The notes beneath the pieces are model-generated. The model saw nothing but the letters and a program-made list of their open reading frames with translations. It had not been told where the DNA came from and ran no database searches. A program made the translations under genes and the position numbers. From assembly GCF_011022235.1 (NCBI RefSeq), contig NZ_JAAIYP010000043.1, positions 1-50,547 on the forward strand: a DNA stretch of 50,547 nucleotides. The letters run 5' to 3'. How positions within the stretch are numbered: position 1 is the stretch's first letter; each line of letters starts with the position of its first letter. The stretch is from Magnetospirillum aberrantis SpK (GTDB taxonomy: Bacteria > Pseudomonadota > Alphaproteobacteria > Rhodospirillales > Magnetospirillaceae). Shown here one piece after another: positions 24,834 through 45,479 of this stretch.

Positions 24834-24881
24834 GGGCCGGGGCCGCCGCCAAGCGCGGCGGCCCGTCCCGGAGGCTCGATC

Positions 24882-26563: not shown

Positions 26564-26568
26564 GTGCT

Positions 26569-27015: not shown

Positions 27016-27037
27016 CGGCCCTGAAAGGATTTCGGTC

Positions 27038-27694
27038 ATGAACAACGACAACGAATCCGCCCAGGCGGCCACGCCGGGGTTCCTGTGCCGGTTGTGGGCA
27101 ACCTTGCGCAAGCCGGCCGGCCGGTGGTCGCTGGGCGCGCTGCTGGTGGTCGGTTTCGGTGCCGGCATCGTCTTCTGGGGCGGCTTCAACACCGTCCTGG
27201 AACTGACCAATACCGAGACGTTCTGTCTGTCGTGCCACGAGATGGAACAAAACGTCTATCGCGAATATCGCGGCACCATCCACGACAGCAACCGCTCGGG
27301 CGTGCGCGCCACCTGTCCCGACTGCCATGTGCCGCGTCCGTGGTTCTACAAGATCAAGCGCAAGGTGCAGGCGTCGAACGAGGTGTTGCACAAGATTCTG
27401 GGCACCATCGACACCCGCGAGAAGTTCGAGGAAAAGCGCCTGAGCCTGGCCATGAACGAATGGAAGCGGATGAAGGAAACCGATTCCCGCGAGTGCCGCA
27501 ACTGCCACAGCTTCTCGTCTTTCGACCTGTCGCGTCAGCAAAAGCGGGCCCAGATCCGCCATGACGAAGCCATCGATGAAGGCAAGACCTGCATCGATTG
27601 CCACAAGGGCGTGGCCCACAAGCTGCCCAAGGGTGCGTTCGAGGCCGAACGCGAACTGAACGAAACCTGGAACGCCGCTCACAAAAAGCAATAA
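27038..27694 (+). CDS. napC: Tetraheme quinol dehydrogenase NapC
   Basis: Membrane-anchored NapC/NirT cytochrome that oxidises quinol and reduces NapB. The 218 residues have one membrane anchor at about 31-50 and four CxxCH sites at 63-67, 93-97, 153-157 and 185-189. Last gene of napFDAGHBC; a terminator follows within 25 bases. Confidence 0.97.
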   Translation: MNNDNESAQAATPGFLCRLWATLRKPAGRWSLGALLVVGFGAGIVFWGGFNTVLELTNTETFCLSCHEMEQNVYREYRGTIHDSNRSGVRATCPDCHVPRPWFYKIKRKVQASNEVLHKILGTIDTREKFEEKRLSLAMNEWKRMKETDSRECRNCHSFSSFDLSRQQKRAQIRHDEAIDEGKTCIDCHKGVAHKLPKGAFEAERELNETWNAAHKKQ

Positions 27695-27715
27695 ACCCCT
27701 CGGAACGCAAACTGA

Positions 27716-27741
27716 CCCCGCCGGCAACGGCGGGGTTTTTT
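27716..27741 (+). terminator. Rho-independent terminator of the nap operon
   Basis: Eight-base stem CCCCGCCG/CGGCGGGG around GCAA followed by six T residues, just after napC and between it and the convergent lptG-like gene. Confidence 0.95.
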
Positions 27742-27756
27742 GCTGGGGACTTGCCG

Positions 27757-28821
27757 TCAGCGCCCTTCTTCGAAATGCACCCAGGCGGCCAGTCCCAACA
27801 GGATGAAGGACAGCGGCGCGCTCCATACCGCCAGGACCGCCGGGATGGCGGCGGCCTCGCCCATGGACAGGAACAGGCCGTTGACCACCAGGAAGGCCAG
27901 CCCCAGCCCCAGGCTGCTGGCCATGCCGTAGATCAGGTTGCCCGAGCGGCGAAGCCCGTGCAGGGCCGGAACCGCCAGCAGCAGCATCACCAGGGGAACG
28001 GTAGCGGCGGCATATCCCCGATGGACGACGACGCGATAATGGGCGGCGCTGTCCTTGCCGCTCCACCGGCCGTCCAGGACTTGTTGCGCCTGGGCGCTCG
28101 ACATGCGCGACAGCGACAGTGTCAGTTGACGGATGTTGTCCACGCTGGGGCCATCGCTCCAGACCAGTCGCGGAGCCGCCTTGCCGCCTTCGGCAAGAGT
28201 GACCTTGTCGTGCTCAAGGTGCCATTTGCCGTCTTCGAAACGGGCGGATTTGGCCCGCGACACCGCCGTCAGCCGGCCGTCGGCGTCGCGGTCGTAGCGG
28301 GTGACGGTGTCCAGGCTCTTTCCGTCCTCGTCGATCCGGCCGATGGATACGATCCGGTTGCCGACGCGCAGCCATTGCGCACGGTTCTTGTCGGCGTCGT
28401 CGTCATCCTTGCGCACGGTGTCTTGCCACCACAGGGCGAAGGAACGCTCCGAGGCCGGGGCCACATGGTCCTCGAACAGATAGTTGACGGTGCCGCACAC
28501 CAGGATCACCGGCCACAGCGAGCGCAGAAAGCGCAACGGCGACAGTCCGGCCGAACGCAGGATCACCATTTCGTTGCTGCGCGCCAGGGTGCCGAAGGCC
28601 AGGGCGCTGCCGATCAGTACCGCCAACGGAAACAGCCGGTCCACGGCCAGCGGCAGGCGCAGCGCCAGATAGGTCAGGACCACATCCATGCCACGGGTGT
28701 CGCCCAGCACACGGCGGATCGCCTCGAGCATCTCGATCAGCAGCACCAGCGCGGTCAACGACGCCAGGACGGCGGCGATGCGGGTGGCGACCACGCGCGA
28801 CAGGTAAAGGGTCAGCGTCAT
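27757..28821 (-). CDS. lptG: LptG-type permease at the end of the sphingolipid operon
   Basis: A 354-residue YjgP/YjgQ-family membrane permease: N-terminal spans (residues 12-34 and 55-80), the SNEMVILRSAGLSP loop, a periplasmic beta-jellyroll region in the middle, and C-terminal spans ending LLGLAAWVHFEEGR. In the lipopolysaccharide machine LptF and LptG form the LptB2FG extractor. Here the pair closes an operon for sphingolipid-like lipids and no lptD or lptB is near, so it may be a dedicated paralogue that moves those lipids. The ATG at 28821 overlaps the lptF stop (ATGA). Confidence 0.88.
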   Translation of the reverse strand: MTLTLYLSRVVATRIAAVLASLTALVLLIEMLEAIRRVLGDTRGMDVVLTYLALRLPLAVDRLFPLAVLIGSALAFGTLARSNEMVILRSAGLSPLRFLRSLWPVILVCGTVNYLFEDHVAPASERSFALWWQDTVRKDDDDADKNRAQWLRVGNRIVSIGRIDEDGKSLDTVTRYDRDADGRLTAVSRAKSARFEDGKWHLEHDKVTLAEGGKAAPRLVWSDGPSVDNIRQLTLSLSRMSSAQAQQVLDGRWSGKDSAAHYRVVVHRGYAAATVPLVMLLLAVPALHGLRRSGNLIYGMASSLGLGLAFLVVNGLFLSMGEAAAIPAVLAVWSAPLSFILLGLAAWVHFEEGR

Positions 28822-29999
28822 GGCCGCACCCCCTTGCTTCGCCGGATCAGGATACGAACGGCGATCGCCACGTCCTCCATGAGGGAGAAGACGCGATCCA
28901 GCGGGTTTTCGCCGGGGCGCCGCTGGGCCCGCCAGAACAGGCTCAGGCTGAAGGCGGCGAAGATCGCCGTCGCACCCCACAGGGTGAGCACCGGAAGACG
29001 GCCGGAATCGGCCAGTCCTTCCAGGGTTTGCAGGACGTAATGGAACACCAGCAACACCACGGCGCCGAACACGATGCCGATGCCGCGCCGTTGCCGCTTG
29101 GCCGCCAGCGCCATGGGAATGGCGAGGAACGGCAGAAAGACCAGCGACATCGCCCGCACCAGACGGCCGTGCAGTTCCGCCAGGATTTCCGAACGGGGCA
29201 GGGGCGGCGTGGGGGTGGTGGCGCCGTCCAGCAATTCGTCCAGACTGTATTCGCGCACGTCGTTGCCGCGCGGCCGGAACTCGGGCAAGGTCGCGGCGAA
29301 GCTGCGGTCCATCTCCAGCGTGTCGAAATGGTTGAACGAGGTTTGGCCGCCGGCGCCGACGAACGCCTGGACGCCGTCATAAAGGCGCAGTCCGAAACGC
29401 GAGCGGCCGGCGTCGAAATCCAGTTCGCCACGGGCGGCGGTGGTGATGATCTCGCGGCCGTCGCGCCATTGGTGGACGAACACCTTTTCCAGGGTGTTGC
29501 CGAAATCGGTTACCCGGTCGGCGGTCACCACCGTATTCTTGCCGATTGTGGAAAAGGCGTATTCCGGCACCCGCGCCCCCCAGGGCACGTTGGTCGCCAG
29601 ATAATAGACGGCGCGATAGGCGTAGCGGCCATAGGGCTGGGCATAGCCGAACAGGGCGACGCTGATCGCCACCAGCACCAGCGCGGAGGCGACGAACGGC
29701 ACGGCGAAACGGGCGGGCGATATGCCGCAGCTCAACAAGGCGTCGAATTCGTTGTCGTCGCCCAGCCGTGTCACCTGAAGAAAGACGCTGAGGAAGAAAC
29801 CGGCCGGCAACGCCAGACCCAGATAGTGGGGCACCAGATAAAGCGCCATTTCCCACACCATGGTCACCGGTCCGCCATGCAGGCTGACGATGTCGAACAG
29901 CCGTAAGATACGCTCCAGCACCAGCGACGCCAGCACGACGGCCAGGGCGATGCCCAGACGGCGCCAGGTTTCCGCCAGCAGGTAGCGGTCGATCAGCAT
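28818..29999 (-). CDS. lptF: LptF-type permease
   Basis: A 393-residue YjgP/YjgQ-family permease: MLIDRYLLAETWRRLGIALAVVLASL at the N-terminus, the GDDNEFDALLSCGISP loop typical of the family, a central periplasmic domain (residues about 140-270), and three C-terminal spans around residues 290-370. The start lies inside the end of the preceding nucleotidyltransferase gene (ATGCTGA), so translation is probably coupled. With the following lptG it would form a heterodimeric lipid extractor; whether its substrate is LPS or the operon's own lipid cannot be read from sequence. Confidence 0.88.
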   Translation of the reverse strand: MLIDRYLLAETWRRLGIALAVVLASLVLERILRLFDIVSLHGGPVTMVWEMALYLVPHYLGLALPAGFFLSVFLQVTRLGDDNEFDALLSCGISPARFAVPFVASALVLVAISVALFGYAQPYGRYAYRAVYYLATNVPWGARVPEYAFSTIGKNTVVTADRVTDFGNTLEKVFVHQWRDGREIITTAARGELDFDAGRSRFGLRLYDGVQAFVGAGGQTSFNHFDTLEMDRSFAATLPEFRPRGNDVREYSLDELLDGATTPTPPLPRSEILAELHGRLVRAMSLVFLPFLAIPMALAAKRQRRGIGIVFGAVVLLVFHYVLQTLEGLADSGRLPVLTLWGATAIFAAFSLSLFWRAQRRPGENPLDRVFSLMEDVAIAVRILIRRSKGVRP

Positions 30000-30814
30000 G
30001 CCGCCCGCTCCTGGGAAAGGCGTTCGGCCAGGATGCGTTCGGCCAAGATGCGTTCGGCCAGCGTCAGGTCGGACGGCCGGTCCACGTCCATGGCGGCTTC
30101 GGCGAACGGCATGTCCACGGCGGCCAACCGGGTGCCGGTCCGCCGTCCCATCCGCTTGAGGGCCTGATCCAGGCGCAGCAGCCCAAGCGCGAACCGCACC
30201 AGGGTCAGCGGACCAAGCCGGCGGATCATCGCCCATGGCCGCTTGCGGTCGCGTTCCAATGCCGCCCAGAACTCCACCACCGAAGCGGCGCCTTCGCCGC
30301 TCAGCAGGAACAGGTTGCAGCCGCTGACCTGACAATCGGCGAAGCGCCAATAGGTGCGGCGGGTGTCGGGATAGGCGGCGGCGATGGTGGTCTTGGTCGC
30401 CACCGCCACGGCGGCGTTGCCGTCTTCGGGGGCGGTGGCCAGGAAATGGCGCACCATGGCCGGGGTCAACAGGGCGTGGTCGGCGGTGGCGATCAGTATC
30501 GGCCCGCCATCGGCCGGCAATGCCGCCCTTACGGTGCGGGCGGGCGATTCCGCCGGGGGCATGATGGTCAGGTTGCCGCCCTGGCTCAGCCGGTCGACGA
30601 TCATCCGCGATTGCGGCGAATCGGGCGGGTCCATGGCGATGGTCAGCGACGCCTCGGGCAACGCGGCGCGCAACGCCTCGACCACCCGTTCCAGCATGGG
30701 TGTTCCCGCCACCGGGGCGAAGGCCTTGCGCTCGACCCCGGCCATCTGCGCCACCGGGTCGGCGCCGCCGCGGCTGCCGGCCAGGATCAGGATTTGCGGA
30801 GGGAGGCGGGTCAT
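29993..30814 (-). CDS. MobA-like nucleotidyltransferase
   Basis: A 273-residue protein of the NTP_transf_3 type. The N-terminal nucleotide loop reads LAGSRGGADPVAQ and is followed by KAFAPVAGTPMLERVVEAL; ATADHALLTPAMV holds the expected metal aspartate region. In this operon it may activate the head-group alcohol as a CDP derivative for the CDP-alcohol phosphotransferase, but this is inference. The C-terminus contains three copies of LAERI from a 15-base repeat. Its ATG overlaps the GNAT gene stop, and its own end overlaps lptF. Confidence 0.8.
   Translation of the reverse strand: MTRLPPQILILAGSRGGADPVAQMAGVERKAFAPVAGTPMLERVVEALRAALPEASLTIAMDPPDSPQSRMIVDRLSQGGNLTIMPPAESPARTVRAALPADGGPILIATADHALLTPAMVRHFLATAPEDGNAAVAVATKTTIAAAYPDTRRTYWRFADCQVSGCNLFLLSGEGAASVVEFWAALERDRKRPWAMIRRLGPLTLVRFALGLLRLDQALKRMGRRTGTRLAAVDMPFAEAAMDVDRPSDLTLAERILAERILAERLSQERAAC
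30020..30064 (-). repeat. Three tandem 15-base units in a coding C-terminus
   Basis: GCGTTCGGCCAGGAT is followed by two near copies (30035-30049, 30050-30064), coding for repeated LAERI near the end of the MobA-like protein. Because the unit is a multiple of three, copy-number change would not shift the frame. Confidence 0.85.
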
Positions 30815-31947
30815 GCCAGGGCCTTCTCGTACAGGCGATAGGTCTTGTATGCCGGTCCGCACAACATTTCCGCCAGGGCGCGCATGGGTTTGTTGTTTTC
30901 CAGGACCCAGGACAATTCGACCGCTTCCATCTTGCGTGCCAGAACCTCGGGCCACAACGCGGCGATCAGGTGGAACGGCAGCATGCTGCCGGCCAGGCTT
31001 GCCGACATCGCCTTGCGCACGCCCATCAGCGGCACGCGGGCGGTGCGCAAGCCCCGCCCCTTGAGCCGCCACAACAGCTTGGCCCAGCCGAACGGCAGCA
31101 ACCGGCCGTCAAGGTCGGCGACCGCCTCGTTCACGTTGGGCAGACACACCAGGAAGGCCACGGCTTGGCCGTCTGTCTCGGCGAACCACACCAGCCGCTT
31201 TTCGATCAGCGGCCGCAATTCGCGGCCCAGCAACGCCACCTCTTCCGGCTCGAAGGGGACGAAGCCCCAATTGGCGCTCCAGGCGTCGTTGAAGATGTCC
31301 ACCATGGTCCGCACTTCGTCGTCATAAGACGATCCCAGACGGGCCGGCCGCACCACGAGGCCGGGCGGCAAGGGGCGATCCATCAGCCGGCGCACGGATT
31401 CCGGGAAAGATTGGCGGGGGTCGCCGCGATAGGCCAGCAGGTCCATGGCCTTGGCGTAGCCGGCGGCTTCCAGCGCCGCGCCCAGGCCGGGCGGGTTGTG
31501 CGGCATCATCATCATGGGCGGCGTGTCGAAGCCGTCCACCAGCAATCCGCTTTCCTGGTTGATGTGCAGATCCAGCGGGCCGCGGACGCGGGTCATACCC
31601 TGTGCCCGCAGCCAATTCTCGGCCGCTGTCGTCAGGGCCGCGACCACGGCCGGGTCCTCCACCGCCGCCAGCAACCCCATGTGGCCGATACCCGGCTCGC
31701 GTTCCAGGGCCAGGGGATCGACATGGGCGGAAATCCGTCCCACCACCTTCTCGCCCTGGGTGGCGATCCACCAGTGCATGCGGGCGCGCCGGGTATAGGG
31801 CGTGGCGCCGGGGGCCAAGCTGGCGCGGCGTTCCATCCACAGCGGCGGCACCCAATGGGGCAGGGTGCCGTAAACCTGGAACGGCACACGTAAAAAGGTG
31901 TCCAGGTCGTGGCTGGGGTCGATGGCGGTGACGGAGATGGTATTCAT
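30811..31947 (-). CDS. GNAT-fold acyltransferase, candidate ceramide N-acyltransferase
   Basis: A 378-residue protein of a GNAT-like family whose members read FxxxPFxxYxxxPxWVPPL at the start (here RVPFQVYGTLPHWVPPL). It continues with VVGRISA, a WLRAQGMTRVRGPLDLHINQESGLLVDGF core and PPMMMMPHNPP. No signal peptide. Its place between lipid head-group genes and SPT makes acylation of a sphingoid base plausible, since Caulobacter ceramide synthase is also a GNAT-type enzyme. It does not obviously belong to that same subfamily, so the substrate is unproven. Start and stop both overlap neighbours. Confidence 0.72.
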   Translation of the reverse strand: MNTISVTAIDPSHDLDTFLRVPFQVYGTLPHWVPPLWMERRASLAPGATPYTRRARMHWWIATQGEKVVGRISAHVDPLALEREPGIGHMGLLAAVEDPAVVAALTTAAENWLRAQGMTRVRGPLDLHINQESGLLVDGFDTPPMMMMPHNPPGLGAALEAAGYAKAMDLLAYRGDPRQSFPESVRRLMDRPLPPGLVVRPARLGSSYDDEVRTMVDIFNDAWSANWGFVPFEPEEVALLGRELRPLIEKRLVWFAETDGQAVAFLVCLPNVNEAVADLDGRLLPFGWAKLLWRLKGRGLRTARVPLMGVRKAMSASLAGSMLPFHLIAALWPEVLARKMEAVELSWVLENNKPMRALAEMLCGPAYKTYRLYEKALA

Positions 31948-32861
31948 CGGATGACCCCGCGCCGATAAAGCGACCACACCATTCCGGGTGCCGCCAGCAG
32001 TGGATGGCGGCGTTGCCACGGGCGCAATTCGATGGTTTGGCCGGAATGGCGTTCCAATTTGCCGACGATGTAATCGACACCGCCGTCGAAGGTGAACAGC
32101 GCCTTGCACAGGCGCAGCACATTCAACGCCTTGCCGGTCACCCGCCGCCGTCGCCAGCGGGCCTGGGCATGGCGTCTTTCGCTTTCGTCCAGATGGACGC
32201 GGTAGCGGCCATCGGCCAAGGCCTCGACCTCGGGCGGCGACAGCCGGGCGAAAGCGTCGTCGAATTCCCGCGGGGCGAAGCCATAGATCTGCCCCGCTCG
32301 CCCGCCGCCCTCGACCCGCAATTCGGCGGCGTAGGTGTGGCGGAACAGCGCGGTCCAGAAATCCTCGGCCCGGCCTTCGACGGGGCCCAGGCGGATAGCC
32401 CAATCCATGGCCGTCGCCGCGGCCCGTGACAATGTCCGTTCCACCCAGGCGGCACATTCATGATCGCGGCAATAGGCCAGGGCGACCGGCTGGCAGAATC
32501 GTGCCCACAAAGTGGTGTCGAGGGCGTCGCGGGTAAGCCGGCCGGTGAATTGGGTCCGTGCGATCACCGCCACCTTGGCGCCCAGGAAGCGGCTTTGTCC
32601 CCCCGGAACGAAGCCGACGGAGGGCGGGACCAGGGCGTTGGCCAGCGCCGCCCCCGGATGACCATGGAACGCGCGGTAGTCGTCCACCAGCACATAGAAG
32701 TCAAGGATGCCCGCGCCGCTTTCGTCGCGCAGGCACGACCCATAGAACAGGATCGCCGCCACCGTGTCGCCATGACGGTCGGCGATGTCCTGGGCCATGC
32801 GGCGGACGTCGTCGCCAACCACATGCTCCCGCAGCAACAGCGAAGGGGGCGGGGCCGACAT
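31944..32861 (-). CDS. Tam41-type CDP-lipid synthase homologue
   Basis: A 305-residue nucleotidyltransferase-fold protein that resembles mitochondrial CDP-diacylglycerol synthase Tam41 (Mmp37). The match is GS at 41-42 (LFYGSCLRDE), the aspartates D54 and D60-D61 in ILDFYVLVDD followed by RAFH (compare the family's IDFxFxVDDxxxWH), then AKVAVI and a later FCQPVAL segment corresponding to the family's RLxKPV. In this operon the likely reaction is CTP plus a phospholipid, perhaps ceramide phosphate, giving a CDP-lipid. The assignment is from recalled motifs. ATG at 32861; the end overlaps the GNAT gene. Confidence 0.7.
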   Translation of the reverse strand: MSAPPPSLLLREHVVGDDVRRMAQDIADRHGDTVAAILFYGSCLRDESGAGILDFYVLVDDYRAFHGHPGAALANALVPPSVGFVPGGQSRFLGAKVAVIARTQFTGRLTRDALDTTLWARFCQPVALAYCRDHECAAWVERTLSRAAATAMDWAIRLGPVEGRAEDFWTALFRHTYAAELRVEGGGRAGQIYGFAPREFDDAFARLSPPEVEALADGRYRVHLDESERRHAQARWRRRRVTGKALNVLRLCKALFTFDGGVDYIVGKLERHSGQTIELRPWQRRHPLLAAPGMVWSLYRRGVIR

Positions 32862-32865
32862 GGGG

Positions 32866-33810
32866 CTACCCCGCGACGAAACGGAAGGTGGGGCCGGCCC
32901 GCAAGGCGATGCCGGCGGGGCCGGTCTGGTATACCTCGCCATCGACGACGAAGTCGCCGCCAAGCCGCAGGTCGAGCCGGCGGCAGCGTCCGCCTTCGAT
33001 CCCCAGGGCGGGATCGGGCAGGGTGCCGCGCCACGCTTTCCACAGAGCCAGCGGCAGACGGCGTGGCGGATGGGCGACGCCCAGCCAGTTGAGCGCCGGT
33101 CCGTCAGCCGGCGGCGGAAACGGCCACAGCCCCAGCATCAGCGTGCGCGCGGTGGTCGCCAGCATCAGGAATCGAGGCGCGGCGGGTGTGGCGTCGGCAC
33201 CGTCGGGGGCGTATTCGACCATGGGGTCGGCCAGCATCTTGCTGCCGCGCAGGGCTTCCCACAACACCCGCGCCACGCCGATCGCCACCGCCGATCGCTG
33301 GCGGAAACCATGGTCATGGGCCCAGCTTCCCGCCATGCGGGTGGCGTGGGTAAAGGCCCCGGCACCGAACAGGAAGCCGCGCAAGCGGCGTTGCGGCTGG
33401 TCCGGCCAAGTCACCTCAAGGGCTTGGCGTTCGCTCCAGTGGGCGCCTCGCCATCCGTCGCGCACCATGTCCAAGAGACGGGTCAAACCCGACCGGCCAC
33501 CCCCGAACGAGCCGACGTCGCGGGCCGCCAGATTGGTCTTGCCCGACGGCAACAGCGCCAGCGGCGGACAGTGGTCTCCGAAAATCTCGGGCAGCAGCGT
33601 CATCACCTCGCGCAAGGTGCCGTCGCCGCCATCCACCGCCAGGACGTCGATTCCGGCATTGGCGAAACCCTTCAGCGCTTCGGCCAGATCATCCGGGGTG
33701 GTGGGGGCGCAGGCCAGCACACCCGGCAGCGTGGCGGCGTGCTCGGCCAGACTGGCCAGGCCGCCGTTGCCGTCGCTGAACGGGTTGCAGACCAGCGCCA
33801 CCGTGGTCAT
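32866..33810 (-). CDS. Diacylglycerol/sphingoid lipid kinase-family protein
   Basis: A 314-residue lipid kinase of the DAGK/LCB5 family: NPFSDGNGG near the N-terminus, the catalytic loop DGGDGTLREV at 60-69, LALLPSGKTNLAARD, and a C-terminal beta-sandwich ending with DGEVYQTGPAGIAL. It would phosphorylate a lipid hydroxyl, here most likely ceramide or a sphingoid base. The ATG at 33810 overlaps the stop of the CDP-alcohol phosphotransferase gene, and its TAG lies four bases before the Tam41-like gene. Confidence 0.87.
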   Translation of the reverse strand: MTTVALVCNPFSDGNGGLASLAEHAATLPGVLACAPTTPDDLAEALKGFANAGIDVLAVDGGDGTLREVMTLLPEIFGDHCPPLALLPSGKTNLAARDVGSFGGGRSGLTRLLDMVRDGWRGAHWSERQALEVTWPDQPQRRLRGFLFGAGAFTHATRMAGSWAHDHGFRQRSAVAIGVARVLWEALRGSKMLADPMVEYAPDGADATPAAPRFLMLATTARTLMLGLWPFPPPADGPALNWLGVAHPPRRLPLALWKAWRGTLPDPALGIEGGRCRRLDLRLGGDFVVDGEVYQTGPAGIALRAGPTFRFVAG

Positions 33811-34946
33811 GGTCCGGCCAGCCACGACGACAGCGGGCCATTCCGGCGGGTCAGTTCGCCTTGGGCCAGTTGCACCGTGTGCACCACCATGGAGGCCACC
33901 GTCCACAGGGCTACCGCCGCCAGTCCCCATCCCGGCTCGCCGGCCAGGGAGAACAGGCTCAGCACGATCAGGTTGGGATTGCGTCGAGCCACGATCAGCC
34001 GGAAGAAGCTGTCGAAACGGCGCCACACATGCATCTGGAAGCCGTGGCGCAGGATGAATGCGCCCTCTTGCAGCCGCAGCACCACGTATCCGACGAAGGT
34101 CACGGCGATGGTCAGTTCGGGGAACGGATAGGCGGCGCCGGCCGCCACGCAGCCCCAATGCCACGCCAGCCACCAGAATGGCGGATGGATCATGTCGATG
34201 CCGTGGTCGAAGGCGTTGCCGAACTTGGTCGAGGTCAGGGTGACGCGGGCCAGCTTGCCGTCCACGGTGTCGAGGAAGGTCATCACCCAGGCGGCGGCCA
34301 ATCCGGCCAGGAAGTGGCCTTGGGCGAACAATCCCATGGCGACGAACACCAGCACCAGACTGGCCAGGGTGACGGCGTTGGGGCTGAGCCCGGCGGCGGC
34401 GCACCAGCGGGTCACGGCTCTGGCCGGGGCGGGCCAGACATATTTGGTCACCAGATCGGTGACCCCTTTGTAGGCACCGGAAAAGGTGGCGCGCTCGGCC
34501 TCGGCAACCGTGTCCTCGGTCAGCGCCATCACCACCGGCTTCAGCCGTTTGCGCAGGATGGCCAGATACAGGAAAGGCGCCGCCGGATCGTGTTCGATCA
34601 CCGCCAGATGGTCGGGCCAGGGCTGGGCGGTCGCGATGGCCTGGGCGGTGGCGGCGATGTCGGCGGCGGCCACATGGGCGGCTAACGGCACCTGCCGGCC
34701 ATCCACACGGGTCGTCAGCACGGTTCCGCGACCCTTGGCCAACAGACCGACCAGCGCCGGGTCGATCACCCAATCGGCGCGGGCCATCAAACAGGACGGC
34801 ATGTCCGCCGTCGCCACAATGTCGGCGACGACGGTGGCGGCGCCGGCCTTGGTCAGGGTACGGCGGCACCGCTCCTCGCCGGTGATGCTCCACAGCCGGA
34901 CGTCGCTGTGCCCGACAATCAGGCCACCAAAGGCGGCGTCAGCCAT
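33807..34946 (-). CDS. CDP-alcohol phosphotransferase with relic nucleotidyltransferase domain
   Basis: A 379-residue protein. Residues from about 155 form a membrane CDP-alcohol phosphotransferase with the complete motif D226, D229-G230, A233-R234, G243, D247, D251 and about six membrane spans. The first 150 residues are soluble and look like a worn NTP-transferase domain (GEERCRRTLTKAGA) without the GxGxR loop, as in the fused inositol-phosphate cytidylyltransferase and DIPP synthases of thermophiles. It should join a phospho-lipid and an alcohol from a CDP-activated partner, building the head group. Overlaps SPT by eight bases. Confidence 0.87.
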   Translation of the reverse strand: MADAAFGGLIVGHSDVRLWSITGEERCRRTLTKAGAATVVADIVATADMPSCLMARADWVIDPALVGLLAKGRGTVLTTRVDGRQVPLAAHVAAADIAATAQAIATAQPWPDHLAVIEHDPAAPFLYLAILRKRLKPVVMALTEDTVAEAERATFSGAYKGVTDLVTKYVWPAPARAVTRWCAAAGLSPNAVTLASLVLVFVAMGLFAQGHFLAGLAAAWVMTFLDTVDGKLARVTLTSTKFGNAFDHGIDMIHPPFWWLAWHWGCVAAGAAYPFPELTIAVTFVGYVVLRLQEGAFILRHGFQMHVWRRFDSFFRLIVARRNPNLIVLSLFSLAGEPGWGLAAVALWTVASMVVHTVQLAQGELTRRNGPLSSWLAGP

Positions 34947-36144
34947 TGTTCGTCTCCAGCACGCCCAAAGCGGCGCCGATCTTGGTCAGGGTGGCGATGG
35001 CCCGGTCCACCTGGGCGTCGGTGTGGGCGGCGGTGACGCTGGTCCTGAGCAACGGATGGGAATCCGGCGTGGCCGGCGGCAAGGCCAGGTTGACGTAAAC
35101 GCCTTCCTGAAGCAGCGCCGTCCAGAACGTGGCGGCGACCGCGACGTCGGGCAGGCGAACCGACACGATCGGTCCCGGCTCCGGTCCCAGGATGAAGCCG
35201 GCCGCGCTTAGGCCGTCATACAGCCGGTGGGCATTGCGGTGCAGGGTCTGGCGCAATTCGGGTTGTTCGACCATCCGCTCCAATCCCCGTTGCACGGTGG
35301 CGACCACCGACGGCGGCAACGAGGCGGTGAACATATAAGGACGGCAGCACACCCGGAGAATGTCGAAATCGGGCAGGTTCGACACGCAGAAGCCGCCGAT
35401 GCCGCCCAGGCTTTTCGAAAAGGTTCCGACGACGAAGTCGGCGTCGTCCTCGACCCCGGCTTCCTCGGCGGCTCCGCGGCCGTTGGCGCCCAGAACGCCC
35501 AGGGAATGGGCCTCGTCCACCAGCAAGGTGGCGCCGGTCTCGCGCTTGACCTGGGCGATCTCGGCCATGCGGGCGCGGTCGCCCAACATGCTGTAGATGC
35601 CTTCGACCACGATCAGGCGGTCGCCCGGCTGTCCCTCGAGGCGGCGCAGGCGGCGGGCCAGATCGTCGGGGTCGTTGTGGCGGAAGCGGATTACCTGGGC
35701 GGCGGACAGGCGGCTGCCGTCATAGATGCTGGCGTGGCTGTCGGCGTCGAGCAAAAGCACGTCGTCGCGTCCGGCCAGGGTCGAGATCATGGCCAGATTG
35801 GCCTGATAGCCGGTGGTGAACACCATGGCCGAACGGCGGCCGAAGAATTCGGCCAGCTTGTGTTCCAGGCTGGTGTGACCGAGATAGGTGCCGTTGGCGA
35901 TGCGCGAGCCGGTGGTGCCGGCGCCATAGGTCCGCAGCGCCTCGATGCCGGACTCGACCATCCGGGGGTCGAATGTCAGGCCAAGATAGTTGTTGCTGCC
36001 GAAGACCAGGACCGGGCGGCCATCGATGGTGGCCTCGACCGGGGAACGCATGGAATCAAAGGTCACCGCGAACGGATCGGCCCCCAATTCCCGCAATTGG
36101 GCATAGCTTTGCCCCAGGGGCGCGAACTTGTCGAGGATGCTCAT
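34939..36144 (-). CDS. spt: Serine palmitoyltransferase-like alpha-oxoamine synthase
   Basis: PLP enzyme, 401 residues, of the alpha-oxoamine synthase family, which condenses an amino acid with an acyl thioester. Active-site features are GSNNYLGL, H137 (DADSHASIYDG), D210 and H213 (LLVDEAHSLG), and the PLP lysine K244 (GTFSKSLGG). BioF and Kbl share the fold, but the adjacent acyl carrier protein, epimerase-type reductase and acyl-AMP ligase match the Caulobacter sphingolipid locus in order. That points to serine plus acyl-ACP giving 3-ketosphinganine. Cytoplasmic. Start overlaps the ACP stop. Confidence 0.88.
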   Translation of the reverse strand: MSILDKFAPLGQSYAQLRELGADPFAVTFDSMRSPVEATIDGRPVLVFGSNNYLGLTFDPRMVESGIEALRTYGAGTTGSRIANGTYLGHTSLEHKLAEFFGRRSAMVFTTGYQANLAMISTLAGRDDVLLLDADSHASIYDGSRLSAAQVIRFRHNDPDDLARRLRRLEGQPGDRLIVVEGIYSMLGDRARMAEIAQVKRETGATLLVDEAHSLGVLGANGRGAAEEAGVEDDADFVVGTFSKSLGGIGGFCVSNLPDFDILRVCCRPYMFTASLPPSVVATVQRGLERMVEQPELRQTLHRNAHRLYDGLSAAGFILGPEPGPIVSVRLPDVAVAATFWTALLQEGVYVNLALPPATPDSHPLLRTSVTAAHTDAQVDRAIATLTKIGAALGVLETNNG

Positions 36145-36386
36145 CGCTTGGTCAGCGCCTCCAGGGTGCGGGCCAGGTCGCCCACGGTTTCGACTTTGGC
36201 CAAACTGTCCATGGTCAGCGACACATCGAAATCATCTTCGAGCGCCATGACGAAGTTCATCACTACCAAGGAATCAAGTCCCAAGTCGCCGACAATCCGC
36301 GATTCGGCGGCAATTTCGGTGCCTGGGGGGACCACCTTGCGCAAGTGACCGATGATGTGTTCGACGATTTCCTGGAAATCCGCCAT
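36141..36386 (-). CDS. Acyl carrier protein of the sphingolipid operon
   Basis: An 81-residue ACP. The phosphopantetheine serine is S39 in DLGLDSLVVMNFVM, and the four-helix pattern of an ACP is clear. It sits between SPT and the epimerase-type gene, so it probably carries the acyl chain loaded by the acyl-AMP ligase and offered to SPT. ATG at 36386; overlaps SPT as ATGA. Confidence 0.94.
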   Translation of the reverse strand: MADFQEIVEHIIGHLRKVVPPGTEIAAESRIVGDLGLDSLVVMNFVMALEDDFDVSLTMDSLAKVETVGDLARTLEALTKR

Positions 36387-36395
36387 TGGTTTTCC

Positions 36396-37346
36396 CTATG
36401 CCTGGGCTGTGGTGGCCGTTGCCGGCCGCAAGGTTTCAATGGTTTGCGTCAATCCGTCCCGCAACGTCCACACCGGCTTCCACAAGGAAGACGGCGGCTG
36501 GCGGGTGGAAGAGCTGCTCCAGTCGGGGTGCAGAATTTCCCGAGCTTTGCCGGAAGTCAACATGGCCGGGGGGATGCCAAGAAAATTAAGAATGGATATC
36601 ATTCGCGCTGCGCCGCACAAAAATAACGGAGGCACGGCGACGATACGTCCGTTTCCACCGGCACAGGCGCGGGCGGTTTCCGCCAGTTCGCGCCACGTGT
36701 AGCCGTCGGCGCGTTGGTCGCTGAGTTCGAATGTGCCGGAAGGGGTGCCGTGAGGACACAGGGCGATGACGGCCGCGGCAACGTCGGCGGCATGGATCAG
36801 ACACAGTCGCGCCGACGGACGGTCCGGGACCGGCAACACCGGCCCCCAGGCGGCGCGCAGCCATGATCCGGTTTCGCGGTCGCCAGGGCCGTAAACCGCC
36901 GCCGGGCGCAGGATCGCCAGTTCGCTCAGTCCTTGTTCGTGGAACGCCTCTTCGCCGGCCGCCTTGCTGAAGGCGTAGTCGGAAAGGGCTGGTTCGCGGG
37001 CGGCCAGGGACGACAGCATCACCACTCGGGGCGGGCGAGGGCGGCGTGCGGCCAACACCGCCAGAAGGTGGGCGCCGTCACGGTTGGCGGTCAGGAAATC
37101 TCGGCGCGAGCGGCCCTTGATGGCCCCTGCCGCATGAACAAGCACATCGGCACCGTCAAGCAGACGGGTCAGGGCGTTGACGTCGGCAAGGTCGCCCTCC
37201 ACCGTCTCGATTTCGGGTTCGAAAACACGCTGCCGTCCCGGACGAACCAACAACCGGACTTGCCAGCCGGCCTCTCTCAGGGCGCGAACGATGTAAGGGC
37301 CGATGAAACCGGTTCCGCCGGTGACGGCGACGCGGCCAAGGCTCAT
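36396..37346 (-). CDS. NAD-dependent epimerase/SDR, candidate ketosphinganine/ceramide reductase
   Basis: A 316-residue extended short-chain dehydrogenase: N-terminal nucleotide-binding VAVTGGTGFIGPYIV, LVHAAGAIKG, and the catalytic YAFSK (YxxxK) with the preceding MLSSL serine. In Caulobacter a protein of this type at the same place (CerR) reduces the keto group during ceramide synthesis; the same role is inferred here. The ATG at 37346 overlaps the acyl-AMP ligase stop. Confidence 0.85.
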   Translation of the reverse strand: MSLGRVAVTGGTGFIGPYIVRALREAGWQVRLLVRPGRQRVFEPEIETVEGDLADVNALTRLLDGADVLVHAAGAIKGRSRRDFLTANRDGAHLLAVLAARRPRPPRVVMLSSLAAREPALSDYAFSKAAGEEAFHEQGLSELAILRPAAVYGPGDRETGSWLRAAWGPVLPVPDRPSARLCLIHAADVAAAVIALCPHGTPSGTFELSDQRADGYTWRELAETARACAGGNGRIVAVPPLFLCGAARMISILNFLGIPPAMLTSGKAREILHPDWSSSSTRQPPSSLWKPVWTLRDGLTQTIETLRPATATTAQA

Positions 37347-39118
37347 GCGCCGCCTTCCGAAGCGAAGGCGCCCGACAGGAAGCTGGCGCGTGCCGACGAC
37401 CGGCTGAGCTTGCCAGACGAGGTTTGCGGCAGGGCGTTGTTGGGGACCAGGACCACCTGTGGTTCGATACCGTGCACCTGGGACACCACGGCCGTCACCG
37501 CCTGGATCAGGGAGCGGCGGATGCCATCGTCGCTGGGACGGCATTGGACCAGCACCACCGCCCGTTCCCCCTTGTCGTCGTCGACGGCGAAGGCGGCGGC
37601 GTCACCGGTGCGCAGGCCGTCCAACTGCTCGACGGTGTGTTCGATGTCGTGCGGCCAGATGTTGCGGCCGTTGACGATGATGACATCCTTGGCCCGGCCG
37701 GTGATCACCAATTGCCCGCCGATCAGGTAGCCCAGGTCGCCGGTATCCAGCCAGCCTTCGCCATCCAACACCCGCGCGGTTTCGTCCGGGCGGTGGTCGT
37801 ATCCGGTCATCAGGCTGGGACCACGCACCATCACCCGGCCGACCTCGCGCTCGGCCAGTGCCGCTCCGTCTTCGTCGCGGATTTGCAATTCGTGACCGGG
37901 GATGACCCGGCCGCAGATCACGAAGTCGCGGCTGCGGCCGTTCGAATCGGTGGCGGGTGGTTCGGCCCGGCCCTGGTGCTCCAGGGTTTCCACATCGACA
38001 CGGTCGGTTTCAACCCCACGCTCCAGTTCGGCGAAGCTGACCACCAAGGTGGTTTCGGCCATGCCGTAGCTGGGGACGAAGGCGCGGCGGTCGAACCCGG
38101 CCGGGGCGAAAATGTCGGCGAATTCGTTCAGGACATGGGGGCGGATCATGTCGCCGCCGATCCCGGCGGCCCGCCAACGCGACAGGTCCAATCCCTGAGG
38201 CAGGGCGTTAGAGGCACGGCGTGCGCACAATTCGTAGCCGAAGCTGGGGCTGTAGGAAATGGTGGCGCCGTTCTGGTCCATCAGCGACAGCCAGCCCAGG
38301 GGACGGCGCGCGAAGTCGCGGGTGGCCAGATAATCCACCGACAATTGGCCGATCAACGGGGCCAGGGCGAAGCCGACCAGCCCCATGTCGTGATAGAACG
38401 GCAGCCAGGAAATGGCGCGGTCGCCGGGGCGCACGGCCAGACCGGTTCCGATCATCGCACCGGCGTTGGTCATCAGCGCCCGGTGGGTGATGGCGATGCC
38501 GGTCGGGGTGCGGGTGCTGCCCGACGAAAATTGCAGGTAGGCGATGTCGTCGGGCCGTGGCGGGGCCAGGGTGACGGCGGCTTCGGGCAGTTTCTGCAAT
38601 TGGGCGACGCTGCCGTGGAACTTGAGCCCCAGCCCGTCCAACGCTTCCGCCAACCAGTCCTCAAGCCAGGTCGGAGCCAGCAAGGCGACGGCACGGGCTC
38701 CCGACACCATCTGGCGCAGCAGCGTGCAATAGGCATCGCGGCCACCAAAAGTGGGGGGCAGCGGGACCGGCGCCGGCAGCAGGCGGGCGTATTGGCAGGC
38801 GGCGAAAGCGACGATGAAGTCTGCCCCGGTTTCGGCGATCAGGGCGACACGGTCGCCCGGTCGCAATCCCTGGCCCAACAGGATGCGGGCCAAGACGATG
38901 GCACGGTCGCGCAGGTCGCGATAAGGCAGGCGTTCCGTCAACTCCAGCCGGCCGGAGTAGAAGTTCATGCCGCTGTTGCCGTCCGCGGCATAATCCAGCG
39001 CGTCAACCAGGGTGGTGAAATCCGAAAAGCGCAACGGGAGGCCGCTTGATGTGGGCGTCGCCGACAAGGCAGCGATGTTGCAAGGTTCGGCGGAGCATTG
39101 TTCAACGGCCAAAGACAC
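37343..39118 (-). CDS. Fatty acyl-AMP ligase, likely acyl-ACP synthetase
   Basis: A 591-residue ANL-superfamily enzyme that activates a fatty acid with ATP. The AMP-binding motif reads YLQFSSGSTRTPTGIAITH, with later SYGMAETTL, GWLDTGDLGY and NGRNIWPHDIEHTVEQ, the set typical of fatty acyl-AMP ligases that load carrier proteins. Its natural partner is the ACP two genes on. I chose the GTG at 39118 because GAGAGG lies just upstream; a GTG at 39151 within the flippase end is an alternative. Confidence 0.9.
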   Translation of the reverse strand: MSLAVEQCSAEPCNIAALSATPTSSGLPLRFSDFTTLVDALDYAADGNSGMNFYSGRLELTERLPYRDLRDRAIVLARILLGQGLRPGDRVALIAETGADFIVAFAACQYARLLPAPVPLPPTFGGRDAYCTLLRQMVSGARAVALLAPTWLEDWLAEALDGLGLKFHGSVAQLQKLPEAAVTLAPPRPDDIAYLQFSSGSTRTPTGIAITHRALMTNAGAMIGTGLAVRPGDRAISWLPFYHDMGLVGFALAPLIGQLSVDYLATRDFARRPLGWLSLMDQNGATISYSPSFGYELCARRASNALPQGLDLSRWRAAGIGGDMIRPHVLNEFADIFAPAGFDRRAFVPSYGMAETTLVVSFAELERGVETDRVDVETLEHQGRAEPPATDSNGRSRDFVICGRVIPGHELQIRDEDGAALAEREVGRVMVRGPSLMTGYDHRPDETARVLDGEGWLDTGDLGYLIGGQLVITGRAKDVIIVNGRNIWPHDIEHTVEQLDGLRTGDAAAFAVDDDKGERAVVLVQCRPSDDGIRRSLIQAVTAVVSQVHGIEPQVVLVPNNALPQTSSGKLSRSSARASFLSGAFASEGGA

Positions 39119-39134
39119 TTTTCCCTCTCGCGCT

Positions 39135-40490
39135 TCAGTCAACGCTGGCACACGGCACCATCCGCGCCCGAAGGCGGGACAGTACCGAGAGCGACTGCAT
39201 CAGGGCAATGGCGGTCGCCGCGATGACCGCGGCCACGCCCGCACCCTCGATTCCGGCCAGCGGCACCAGCACCACCAGCGACGGCAAATACAATACGGTG
39301 GCGGCCACGCGGATGCGCAGGGCCGTTGACGCTTCGCCAATGGAAATCAACGCCGGCTCGAGGGCGAAGGTCCCGACCCCGATCAACGCAGCCAATCCCA
39401 ACAGCAACATGGCATTAAACGCGGCAACCACCTCGGCCCCGCCGATCAACGTCAAAATCCATGGCCCGGCCACATAAAGGACCAGGGCGCAAAGGCCAGC
39501 GCCGATCCCGGACAAGCGTAGCGTGCGGCCAAGAAATCCCCACAGGGCATCCAGACGGTTCAGGGTCGCGAAGCGGGCGAATTCCGGGTAGATGGCGGTC
39601 GTCATCAACTTGACCGGCTTGGCGGCGGCCTCGGCCACTTGGCGGGCGATGCGGAACAATGCCGCCTGTGGCGCCCCGATCAGTACCCCGACGGTCAAGG
39701 TCGCCAACTGGTTGGTCAGCAGCGCCAGGGACGAGTTGGCGTTGGTGCTGAGCACGAAACGCCAGATGCCGTCGAAACCGTCGGTCAGCGAACGTTTGTC
39801 CGTTCCAGAAGACCGCAGCGACAAACCATGAAGACGGGCCTCGCGCCATGCCAGGACGATGCTGGTCATGGCGCCGGCCACCGTCGACAACGCCCAGAGG
39901 GCGAGGAAGGCGTTCAGATCGCCGCCGACCACGAAGAAAACAGCCCCGCCCAGCAACCGCACCAACGCCTCGACATTGTCTTCGAGCACCGCCAGCTTGA
40001 AACGGTCGAACAGGCGCAGCAAGCCGATCGGCGTCGAGGTGATCATGAACAGCAACGAACCGGCATAAAGCATCGCCGCCGGAACGCTTTCGGCCGGCAG
40101 GCCCATGGCCGAGCCAAAGAACCACAACGCGGCGGCAGTTCCGAGTGCGCCGACAATCGCGCTGCTGATGTCCAGCCAGCCGCTGAACAGCACCAGTCGG
40201 CGCAAGTCGTCCAGGCGACCGGCATGCAAGGCGGGGGTGCCGTAGCGCAGGATCGGTTGCCAGCTTTGGAACTTGACCACGTTTCTGGCGATTTCAACCA
40301 TGGTGTGGATGATGACCAAAACGCCGAAAGTCTCGATCCCAAGCGTCCGCACCGTCAGCGCCAGATAGCCCAGTCCCAGAAGACCGCTGACCGACTTGCC
40401 GCCGATCAACAGGCCAAGATTGGACAGCAGGCGGCGCATGACTCCGTTGCCGACGGAAGAAGAGGGAAGAGGGCGGGGGGCGTCATCCAT
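39135..40490 (-). CDS. MOP/Wzx-type membrane flippase
   Basis: A 451-residue integral membrane protein with about 12-14 hydrophobic spans, starting LLSNLGLLIGGKSVSGLLGLGYLAL and reading like a polysaccharide-biosynthesis (Wzx/RfbX) transporter. Such proteins flip lipid-linked saccharides across the inner membrane. Its position as second gene of the operon suggests it flips a glycosylated or head-group-bearing lipid made here. No close subfamily recognised. Confidence 0.85.
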   Translation of the reverse strand: MDDAPRPLPSSSVGNGVMRRLLSNLGLLIGGKSVSGLLGLGYLALTVRTLGIETFGVLVIIHTMVEIARNVVKFQSWQPILRYGTPALHAGRLDDLRRLVLFSGWLDISSAIVGALGTAAALWFFGSAMGLPAESVPAAMLYAGSLLFMITSTPIGLLRLFDRFKLAVLEDNVEALVRLLGGAVFFVVGGDLNAFLALWALSTVAGAMTSIVLAWREARLHGLSLRSSGTDKRSLTDGFDGIWRFVLSTNANSSLALLTNQLATLTVGVLIGAPQAALFRIARQVAEAAAKPVKLMTTAIYPEFARFATLNRLDALWGFLGRTLRLSGIGAGLCALVLYVAGPWILTLIGGAEVVAAFNAMLLLGLAALIGVGTFALEPALISIGEASTALRIRVAATVLYLPSLVVLVPLAGIEGAGVAAVIAATAIALMQSLSVLSRLRARMVPCASVD

Positions 40491-40505
40491 GCGGGCGGGC
40501 GTTTC

Positions 40506-41303
40506 CTATGGCGCCCGCGAGCACAGTGCAGCCCCGTCTTCGGGAGCTCCGACCTGTTCGCGCCACATTCTTGTCCCCAAACGTTCGGCGGCGGGCAAAT
40601 CCTTGGGGAAGTCCACCTCGCACCATTCGCGGCCCTGGATGTTGGCGGTGTGAACCGTCGCCTGTCCGGCCAATTCGTCGATGACGCTGAGATACCAGCG
40701 CTTCAGGCCCCCCTCGCGTCGGATGGTCTGTTCCAGGGCGTCGGCGAAAATCCGTCCGCCATCGTCGGAAAAGAACAGCATGCCAATGGATTCGGCGTGG
40801 GATTGTTCCTCGGTCAAGGTCTTGCCGATGGCAACCAGCCGCCGCCCGTCCAACTGCACCTTCATGTCGTCGGAATCGTAGCGTTCCTTGTGGTCGACGG
40901 TCACCACGATGGGGGCGTCGACCTGGGTTTTGGCTTCGGCGAACAGGCTGGGGTGGAACAGGGTGTCGCCGTTCAACAAAACGAAGTCGCCGTCCATCAT
41001 CTCGTGGCGGGCCACGAAGCAACTGCCGATGTTGTCGGCCACCTCAAAAAAGGGATTGTGCAGAGGTCGCACCAGGATGCCGTCGTCGGCCCGAGCCCGG
41101 ATGACGGTTTCCACCGCCTGAGCCTCGAAACCGGTGACAACCACCACTTCTTCAACGCCATTGGCGGCCAGTGCGGCTATCTGCCATTCCAGTACGGTAC
41201 GCCCCCCCAGCGGCAGCAGACACTTGGGGCGCTGCGCCGTGAACGGCAGTAAACGCTTTCCTTGGCCGGCGCTGAGGATGATCGCCTTCCTGCTCACTGA
41301 CAT
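40506..41303 (-). CDS. Sugar/choline-phosphate nucleotidyltransferase (LicC-like), first gene of operon
   Basis: A 265-residue NTP transferase. The N-terminal loop is LSAGQGKRLLPFTAQRPKCLLPLGG, followed by VLEWQIAALAANGVEEVVVVTGF; NPFFEVADNIGSCFVARHEM and LLNGDTLF resemble the phosphocholine and inositol-phosphate cytidylyltransferases more than sugar-nucleotide enzymes. It may supply a CDP-activated head group to the operon. GGAG lies directly before the ATG at 41303, and the divergent promoter region with the AcrR-like operator lies upstream. Confidence 0.82.
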   Translation of the reverse strand: MSVSRKAIILSAGQGKRLLPFTAQRPKCLLPLGGRTVLEWQIAALAANGVEEVVVVTGFEAQAVETVIRARADDGILVRPLHNPFFEVADNIGSCFVARHEMMDGDFVLLNGDTLFHPSLFAEAKTQVDAPIVVTVDHKERYDSDDMKVQLDGRRLVAIGKTLTEEQSHAESIGMLFFSDDGGRIFADALEQTIRREGGLKRWYLSVIDELAGQATVHTANIQGREWCEVDFPKDLPAAERLGTRMWREQVGAPEDGAALCSRAP

Positions 41304-41421: not shown

Positions 41422-42042
41422 ATGTTTTTTTTGGGGAAAGCCGGGATTTGGCGCTGGGTGGTCGGCGCGACGGCTGCGTTGTCCTTCATGGTGGGAACCG
41501 CCGCTGCCCAGGACGGGGCCGTGGCGTTTCTTGATGGCGTGAGTAAGGAGGTGTTGGCCGAGGTCACGGCCCCCGGCCTGAGCCATGGCGAACGCCAACA
41601 GAATTTCCGTGCGATTCTGCAACGGGTGTTTGGCATGGATGAAATCTGTCGGCAGGTCCTGGGGCGTTACGGCCGGACCGCCACCGCGGAACAGCAGCAG
41701 GAATTCCGTCGGTTGTTCGAGGACATGCTGGTGGTGACCTGGGCCAGACGGTTCCAGGACTACACCGGGGGCGGCATGCGTTTCGGCGCGGCCACGCCGA
41801 TTGGGAACGGCGATGTGCTTGTCTCGTCTCAGATCGACGGGAGCGGCAATCAGCCATTGAATGTGGAGTGGCGTTTGCGCGGCGAGGGTGAGGGCTACCG
41901 TCTTCTCGACATCAAGGCCGAAGGAACCAGCATGGTGCTGACCTATCGTTCAGAATACCAAACGGTGTTGCGCCATGGCGGTCTGGACGAACTGAACGGC
42001 TTGTTGCGCAAGAAAATCGAACAATTGGCGGGGGCCGGTTGA
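41422..42042 (+). CDS. mlaC: MlaC/Ttg2D-family periplasmic lipid-binding protein
   Basis: A 206-residue exported protein of the toluene-tolerance Ttg2D (MlaC) family, which carries phospholipids between the outer and inner membrane. It has a signal peptide (WVVGATAALSFMVGTAAAQ, cleavage about residue 29) and the family core, including NFRAILQRVFGMDEI, VLGRYGRTAT and FRRLFEDMLVVTWARRF. No mlaA, B, D, E or F gene is adjacent, so it may serve the divergent sphingolipid operon. Its end faces the regulator gene with nine bases between. Confidence 0.9.
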   Translation: MFFLGKAGIWRWVVGATAALSFMVGTAAAQDGAVAFLDGVSKEVLAEVTAPGLSHGERQQNFRAILQRVFGMDEICRQVLGRYGRTATAEQQQEFRRLFEDMLVVTWARRFQDYTGGGMRFGAATPIGNGDVLVSSQIDGSGNQPLNVEWRLRGEGEGYRLLDIKAEGTSMVLTYRSEYQTVLRHGGLDELNGLLRKKIEQLAGAG

Positions 42043-44852: not shown

Positions 44853-44958
44853 GGTGACTTCGCTTTCGATGCATGGGCATAAGGACCGCACCGGCGGCCA
44901 GTTGCCCGCGACGGGATGCCGCGCCGATGGGGCGCGGTGAATTCAGAAAAAGCGGAAG

Positions 44959-45399: not shown

Positions 45400-45421
45400 G
45401 TCCGGCAGGATGGTCGTGCAT

Positions 45422-45435
45422 GTGATCCAAGTCAA
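45422..45435 (-). promoter_or_regulatory. FNR-like box upstream of DUF2946 copy 1
   Basis: On the minus strand TTGACTTGGATCAC fits TTGAT-N4-ATCAA with two mismatches. It lies 22 bases before the start codon, as does the corresponding box of copy 2. Confidence 0.4.
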
Positions 45436-45479
45436 GTCGGCTGCCGGGGCGGGAAAACGCCTCGGCAGCCGGCTTGGAA

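Follow-up and report, generated by a model that had tools for sequence, protein, structure and literature searches.

The DNA analysed here (the window) is a stretch of 50,547 nucleotides from Magnetospirillum aberrantis SpK (contig NZ_JAAIYP010000043.1), in which we examined thirteen consecutive genes that very probably form a single operon for an anionic phosphosphingolipid of the Caulobacter type. Positions 27757 to 41303 are filled, on the minus strand, by thirteen reading frames, g01 to g13, numbered in transcription order from 41303 downwards. If g03 begins at the upstream of its two candidate starts, overlaps of 4-17 bases occur at nine of the twelve junctions and the rest are gaps of 4, 9 and 15 bases, in agreement with the close packing that a previous sequence-only reading of this DNA had described. 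The start of g03 may be GTG 39151 or ATG 38968, the short form opening a 166-base gap at the g02/g03 junction; the upstream start is favoured because, with the short form, the NCBIfam profile is matched only from its position 32 onwards. Domains were assigned by Pfam and NCBIfam profile scans. The genes are listed below, with the Caulobacter gene (CC number) at the equivalent position.

g01, 40506-41303, minus strand: putative CpgD-like CTP (cytidine triphosphate):phosphoglycerate cytidylyltransferase, CC_1152 position (PF12804, PF00483; 9 of 11 CpgD residues identical).
g02, 39135-40490, minus strand: Polysacc_synt flippase, CC_1166 position (PF01943, E 4.7e-13).
g03, 37343-39151 (start possibly as far downstream as 38968), minus strand: AasR-like fatty acyl-AMP (adenosine monophosphate)/ACP (acyl carrier protein) ligase, CC_1165 position (NF006624).
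g04, 36396-37346, minus strand: CerR-like ketone reductase of the NAD epimerase/reductase kind, CC_1164 position (PF01370, E 2.6e-19; adjoins the ACP and ligase genes).
g05, 36141-36386, minus strand: putative dedicated acyl carrier protein AcpR, CC_1163 position (PF00550, E 7.2e-12; GLDSL motif).
g06, 34939-36144, minus strand: serine palmitoyltransferase (SPT), CC_1162 position (NF047599; solved SPT relatives; tree).
g07, 33807-34946, minus strand: CpgA-like CDP (cytidine diphosphate)-alcohol phosphotransferase, CC_1159 position (PF01066; signature; structure model; Foldseek).
g08, 32866-33810, minus strand: putative CpgB-like ceramide kinase (DAGK_cat), CC_1160 position (PF00781, E 6.5e-11; GGDGT motif).
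g09, 31944-32861, minus strand: Tam41-like cytidylyltransferase, predicted CDP-ceramide synthase, CpgC/CC_1161 position (fold of the model; profiles of relatives).
g10, 30811-31947, minus strand: predicted ceramide synthase CerS (GNAT N-acyltransferase), CC_1154 position (PF00583, 20.9 bits against a cut-off of 20.7).
g11, 29993-30814, minus strand: MobA/CofC-like nucleotidyltransferase, CC_1153 position (PF12804, E 1.2e-13).
g12, 28818-29999, minus strand: LptF2 (PF03739, E 1.1e-59).
g13, 27757-28821, minus strand: LptG2 (PF03739, E 4.0e-64).

In the Caulobacter cluster CC_1152-CC_1168 for ceramide phosphoglycerate (CPG) and ceramide diphosphoglycerate (CPG2), every one of g01-g13 is matched in function and position, the shared set being the five ceramide genes, CpgA, CpgB, CpgC, CpgD, CC_1153, the flippase, LptF2 and LptG2. 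The published order (PMC11324152) runs from CC_1168 to CC_1162 as LptC2, an unrelated gene, flippase, AasR, CerR, AcpR and SPT, and from CC_1161 to CC_1152 as CC_1161, the kinase CC_1160, CC_1159, CC_1158, an unrelated gene, LptF2, LptG2, CerS, CC_1153 and CC_1152; judging from the numbering of two gene lists, CC_1152 would be CpgD (CCNA_01210). Lipid phenotypes of Caulobacter mutants and enzyme work have been reported (PMC11324152, PMC12275187, PMC10331486, PMC13228409). The window set forms one operon on one strand, whereas the Caulobacter genes occupy four operons and two single genes; in addition the window operon is without CC_1157, CC_1158, CC_1167 and LptC2 (CC_1168), and an MlaC-like gene adjoins it.

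In order to place the cluster among its relatives, genome contigs were scanned with a five-member g09 alignment, which gave at least 537 confirmed stretches of 596, and the best 80 were kept. These, four loci from related genomes and seven further loci (L136-L142), with one duplicate contig omitted, make a set of 91, in which many loci have cut flanks, gene-content counts thus being lower bounds. The same thirteen genes lie together in at least 12 of the 91 loci, three of them on a single strand (L024, L025, L029), and the grouping is therefore beyond chance. The loci L136-L142 were chosen by hand from 76 genomes with a g09 match, which came from a search of 299 genomes of the order to which a Robiginitomaculum genome belongs (in most genomes only eight candidates were scored). 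All thirteen window genes occur in L136-L139 and L142 in the published Caulobacter order; L140 has twelve, its stretch ending before CpgD, and L141 has ten in another arrangement. We regard L137-L139 and L142 as Caulobacter-like from their gene order and from the CpgD residues of L138 described below. The sequence-only reading had equated the core order of SPT, carrier protein, epimerase and ligase with that of the Caulobacter ceramide locus, and both the published map and L136-L139 and L142 bear this out; among biosynthetic and transport genes the two neighbourhoods match gene for gene except for CC_1158 and LptC2. The domains of g01-g13 likewise agree with the make, decorate and export unit that had been proposed.

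From the gene identities, the domain and fold matches, the gene order and the conserved residues, which are observed, we infer the following reactions and product. AasR (g03) would load a fatty acid onto AcpR (g05), and SPT (g06) would condense the loaded fatty acid with serine; CerS (g10) would then N-acylate and CerR (g04) reduce. The kinase g08 would convert ceramide into ceramide-1-phosphate, from which the Tam41-like g09 would probably form CDP-ceramide. Meanwhile g01 would produce CDP-glycerate from CTP and phosphoglycerate, g07 would extend the head group using a CDP-activated group, and g11 may perform one more nucleotidyl-transfer step. Finally the flippase g02 and a second LptF/LptG set (g12, g13) would carry the lipid toward the outer membrane. 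Within this scheme the nucleotide-activated route, in which a Tam41-type g09 makes CDP-ceramide and g01 and g07, as a split pair of the IPCT-DIPPS kind, add CDP-glycerate, stands at about even chances; CDP-ceramide would be the sphingolipid counterpart of CDP-diacylglycerol (CDP-DAG).

The assignment of g09 is the most useful part of the analysis. CpgC acts by an unidentified mechanism according to a 2025 paper (PMC12275187) and a 2026 preprint (PMC13228409), and for CC_1161 an InterPro domain that points to a CDP-DAG synthase has been noted, an NDP (nucleoside diphosphate)-activated ceramide being contemplated (PMC11324152); the idea of a ceramide activation step is thus already in print and is not new here. 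Tam41 appears in none of the papers listed in our literature search on Caulobacter, ceramide or sphingolipid. The structure model of g09 (60 sequences) has a predicted local distance difference test score of 91.6, and a Foldseek search of the PDB with this model places Tam41 CDP-DAG synthase at ranks 1 to 5 (E 1.8e-8 to 4.3e-7), other nucleotidyltransferases trailing at E 2e-4 or worse. Tam41 is a lipid-activating enzyme of mitochondria. On the side of sequence, the Tam41 family PF09139 is matched at E <= 1 by 9 of the 60 members of an alignment of the window gene with its relatives from 59 of the 80 kept loci (best 4.9e-7). Five of ten relatives scanned singly match it, L062 and L074 lying above the cut-off of 24. 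A seven-member profile of relatives reaches the Tam41 structure 6ig2 at E 4.7e-5, a value that leans favourable since the subset was chosen in part because five members had matched PF09139. In the 60-row alignment D54 is the sole invariant acid near the YGS motif and is followed by the invariant Y56 (D-x-Y); Tam41 retains one of the usual three acids (PMC11646218). Comparing with Tam41 (6ig2, 6ig4, 7ecd; PF09139), g09 has the same fold with YGS and then D-x-Y, and its relatives have the K-Y and G-R-F stretches of 6ig2; the difference lies in an identity of about 12% and in the predicted substrate, ceramide-1-phosphate instead of phosphatidic acid. Furthermore, the kinase gene stands immediately before g09 on the same strand in all 85 loci that have both. 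Because of the Tam41 match in fold and profile and of the kinase gene that precedes g09 in these loci, the sequence of steps from ceramide through ceramide-1-phosphate to CDP-ceramide is proposed, and g09 is predicted probably to make CDP-ceramide.

Several results speak the other way. The window g09 itself has no Pfam or NCBIfam match, PF09139 included, and the Template Modelling scores of its model to Tam41 are moderate (0.51-0.62). The 60-member profile finds no Tam41 in the PDB, its best matches being a bromodomain protein (E 0.19) and kanamycin nucleotidyltransferase (0.57), and the single relative L096 reaches 6ig2 at E 1.7 only, behind unrelated matches. PF09139 is silent in searches of the own genome and of the Caulobacter control genome, so the link to Tam41 is visible only through some relatives and through the fold. 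Moreover, Caulobacter makes CPG without CC_1159 (CpgA), and CDP-ceramide would thus need another transferase there; a second CDP-alcohol phosphotransferase match is present in 10 of 85 loci (L027, L042, L052, L062, L064, L080, L084, L088, L094, L097), and this extra enzyme could be the one making CPG.

The most serious alternative is that g09 is not a CDP-ceramide synthase and either acts on another phosphorylated substrate or, as in an earlier published proposal, transfers glycerate directly to ceramide-1-phosphate. We consider this doubtful, the less probable of the two roles by a visible degree. In its favour, CpgC is required for CPG in Caulobacter, its mechanism is left open in the published figure (PMC12275187), and our literature search found no paper bringing together CDP-ceramide, cytidylyltransferase and bacteria. 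The fold and profile matches, however, lead to a CTP-using lipid-phosphate cytidylyltransferase, g09 follows the kinase gene in all 85 loci that have both, and direct attachment of glycerate has been called energetically not very favourable (PMC11324152).

For the head group, a preprint on the structures of C. crescentus CpgD (PMC13228409) points out eleven residues: Gly12, Arg16, Thr88, Asn90, Thr93, Asn110, Gly111, Met147, Lys161, Ser170 and Trp201. Nine of these eleven positions are identical in g01, including N90, N110, M147, K161, S170 and W201, the exceptions being T88A, where the contact is made through the backbone, and T93S, which keeps the hydroxyl; the glycerate-contacting residues are thus retained. 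L138 has the same letter at all eleven C. crescentus positions. In two paralogues from the own genome (L170, L171), whose alignment with g01 is short and distant, Gly12, Arg16, Lys161 and Ser170 are retained and the seven remaining residues are changed; of the other candidates in this control, L172 gave no match and L173 and L174 yielded short frames that were wrong. The residues kept by g01 favour CTP and phosphoglycerate as its substrates, and hence ceramide phosphoglycerate or diphosphoglycerate as the likeliest product.

Residues 226-251 of g07 carry the full CDP-alcohol phosphotransferase signature, and its model (score 95.3 on the same scale as that of g09) has AF2299 and IPCT-DIPPS 4mnd as top Foldseek matches along the length of the protein. 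The nucleotidyltransferase-like N-terminal domain is probably degenerate, the GxGxR motif being absent as read from the sequence. The second-best NCBIfam match of g01 is NF041135 (inositol-1-phosphate cytidylyltransferase/DIPPS), whose first half is matched by g01 and second half by g07, both far below cut-off. Thus g01 and g07 look like a split version of the archaeal IPCT-DIPPS (4mnd, NF041135), with g01 as the cytidylyltransferase half and g07 as the phosphotransferase half, that would make and spend CDP-glycerate; they differ from it in being separate genes, in their low scores and in the absence of GxGxR from the N-terminal domain of g07. Of the 49 loci that have a CDP-alcohol phosphotransferase match, 23 also have one to CpgD, and none of the other 42 loci does (p 4e-8, uncorrected for kinship and cut flanks). 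Besides its Pfam domain, g11 shows a match to TIGR03552 F420_cofC at E 3.7e-4, its 20 bits lying far below the cut-off of 105.

These same enzymes are the ground for a second alternative, the same pathway with another head group such as inositol, glycerol or ethanolamine phosphate. CDP-alcohol enzymes and nucleotidyltransferases switch substrate easily, the fold of g07 is AF2299 and IPCT-DIPPS-like, and its best NCBIfam matches are phosphatidylinositol-phosphate and archaetidylinositol-phosphate synthase, which like the inositol-type match of g01 lie far below cut-off. The presence in g01 of the glycerate-contacting residues of CpgD and the agreement of the full gene set with the phosphoglycerate cluster make this alternative improbable.

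The ceramide-making part of the operon is anchored by g06, which scores 656 bits with the SPT equivalog NF047599 (cut-off 500) and falls below the cut-offs of bioF (329 bits against 426), PRK06939 (308 against 460) and 2am3keto_CoA (283 against 493). Among solved structures, those closest to it belong to SPT (2x8u, 435 bits), the best Kbl and BioF being 1fc4 (228) and 5jay (180). In a tree of 79 rows g06 stands among 75 SPT rows (itself and 74 from other loci) with support 100, apart from E. coli BioF, Kbl and two paralogues of the own genome; this is a quick tree with a warning of a long-branch outgroup. The weakest alternative, that g06 is BioF or Kbl and no sphingolipid is made, can appeal to the one common family and to the BioF and Kbl profiles that also match g06, and is rejected on profile scores, solved relatives and tree, the phylogeny being the sequence test that the sequence-only reading had itself set. 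On this sequence evidence g06 is a true SPT, as had been called before.

The gene g03, scanned in its short form, matches NCBIfam NF006624 with 783 bits (cut-off 600), and the AcpR and AasR genes (g05, g03) are placed near SPT by domain and position. The identity of g04 with its CerR counterparts in L136-L140 and L142 is 41-44%, L141 having no CerR match. In the same six loci the counterpart of g10 sits between g11 and LptG with 47-50% identity, and g10, whose GNAT match lies barely above cut-off, is the predicted ceramide N-acyltransferase at the CerS position. A role of g10 as nucleotidyltransferase was rejected on its GNAT domain match. The kinds of domain listed in the sequence-only reading stood broadly; its three nucleotidyltransferases and a CDP-lipid enzyme leave no place for the N-acyltransferase, so one of its enzyme calls must be wrong, the ceramide synthase g10 being missing from the list.

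For export, the genome has four genes of PF03739, the single Pfam family of LptF and LptG, two in the operon and two outside the window on two other contigs; g12 and g13 were named by position. Since these two further genes exist elsewhere, g12 and g13 are probably a dedicated second LptF/LptG set, by analogy with the proposal for Caulobacter; they may work with the common LptC or with the MlaC-like protein encoded next to the operon.

Weighing the pathway as a whole, further points count against it. The product is predicted from the genes, and the roles of CerS, AcpR, AasR and CerR are assigned from position and from weak or general profiles. A CC_1158 phosphoesterase is not found among the thirteen genes, the remaining genome not having been searched, and a second LptC was not found, the genome having one PF06835 match, outside the window. 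CC_1158 is absent from the published relatives too, and CC_1168 is missing also in N. eutropha, A. vinelandii and P. luteola (PMC11324152); neither gene is therefore defining for a CPG cluster. Lastly, the topology is difficult: in Caulobacter CerR has been placed in the periplasm, and SPT and CerS in the cytoplasm (PMC11087976), while the kinase and the cytidylyltransferase need cytoplasmic nucleotides, which makes it hard to order the steps on the two sides of the membrane.

Within the genus of the window, g09 is present in 5 of 13 genomes, one of which has just a fragment of it where a contig ends; the gene is present in 1 of 24 genomes from the rest of the family sample and in 0 of 24 from the order sample; the nearest named genome among the matches listed is Rhodospirillaceae bacterium UBA6219. 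In a tree of the window gene and 40 of 49 candidate stretches, the window and the genome G008 group with Oleispirillum, a Rhodospirillum metagenome-assembled genome (MAG) and an unclassified alphaproteobacterial MAG, and G001 and G010, of the same genus as the window, group with G019 of the same family. A single clade of the window, G008, G001 and G010 is rejected (approximately unbiased test, p 0.003, quick tree), and the SPT tree splits the genus in the same way. A NapC match occurs in all 13 genus genomes, and among eight regions fetched, G008 included, no other genome has the operon beside napC and no clean empty site was found; the napC region of G002 has merely a 23% ligase match. The split into two groups and the placement beside napC, seen in the window genome alone among these regions, suggest that the operon was gained separately or replaced within the genus.

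Other arrangements were seen among the loci. In L020 (G010) and L021 (G001) the sphingolipid cluster is a divergent version, split up much as in Caulobacter, which does not form one clade with that of the window. L051, L060, L065, L067, L069, L072 and other Acetobacteraceae loci have the kinase and g09 with no CpgA, CpgD, CerS or CerR match within the stretch; the pair is thus separable and may serve another head group. L062, L064 and L084 (Nitrospirales MAGs) and L096 (a Desulfosarcina MAG) have the kinase, g09 and CDP-alcohol enzymes with no SPT match within the stretch, so that these genes are found together also at a great distance from the Alphaproteobacteria.

The operon is bordered by the following features.

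22329-27694, plus strand: periplasmic nitrate reductase cluster running toward the operon (molybdopterin subunit, ferredoxin-like protein, frame ending in NapB, NapC).
27714-27737: GC-rich stem of 10 pairs, a possible terminator between the convergent napC and LptG2 and the longest stem listed in the region.
41422-42042, plus strand: periplasmic lipid carrier of the MlaC kind, transcribed away from the operon and possibly linked to it (PF05494, E 5.8e-36).
42052-42660, minus strand: TetR regulator, upstream of the operon.
44058-48846, minus strand: ZnuA-like metal-binding protein, TonB-dependent receptor and FecR-like regulator.

The nearest relative, L019/L024 on a single G008 contig, also has both the MlaC-like and the TetR gene, and in no other of the fetched loci compared does MlaC stand beside the operon. 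Terminator-like sites in the region show no excess (12 against a shuffle mean of 12.1), the promoter scan gave 1 site against a shuffle mean of 1.5, and a fold search in the viral library returned merely general nucleotidyltransferases with weak scores.

Judged by titles and the openings of abstracts, none of the papers listed in our literature search is about Magnetospirillum sphingolipids. The unit itself is less unusual than had been supposed, the same set having been published, with gaps, for six other proteobacteria besides Caulobacter (PMC11324152) and relatives of g09 being as widespread as the contig scan indicates. The cluster is a one-strand version of a published pathway in one more genome of a widespread kind. 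The value of the locus lies in a testable reaction for CpgC, offered by the link to Tam41, and the whole pathway on one strand is convenient for transfer to a laboratory host. The viability of Caulobacter without lipopolysaccharide depends partly on such an anionic sphingolipid (PMC12275187), which gives the chemistry of this pathway a bearing on the ways in which a Gram-negative envelope may be constructed.

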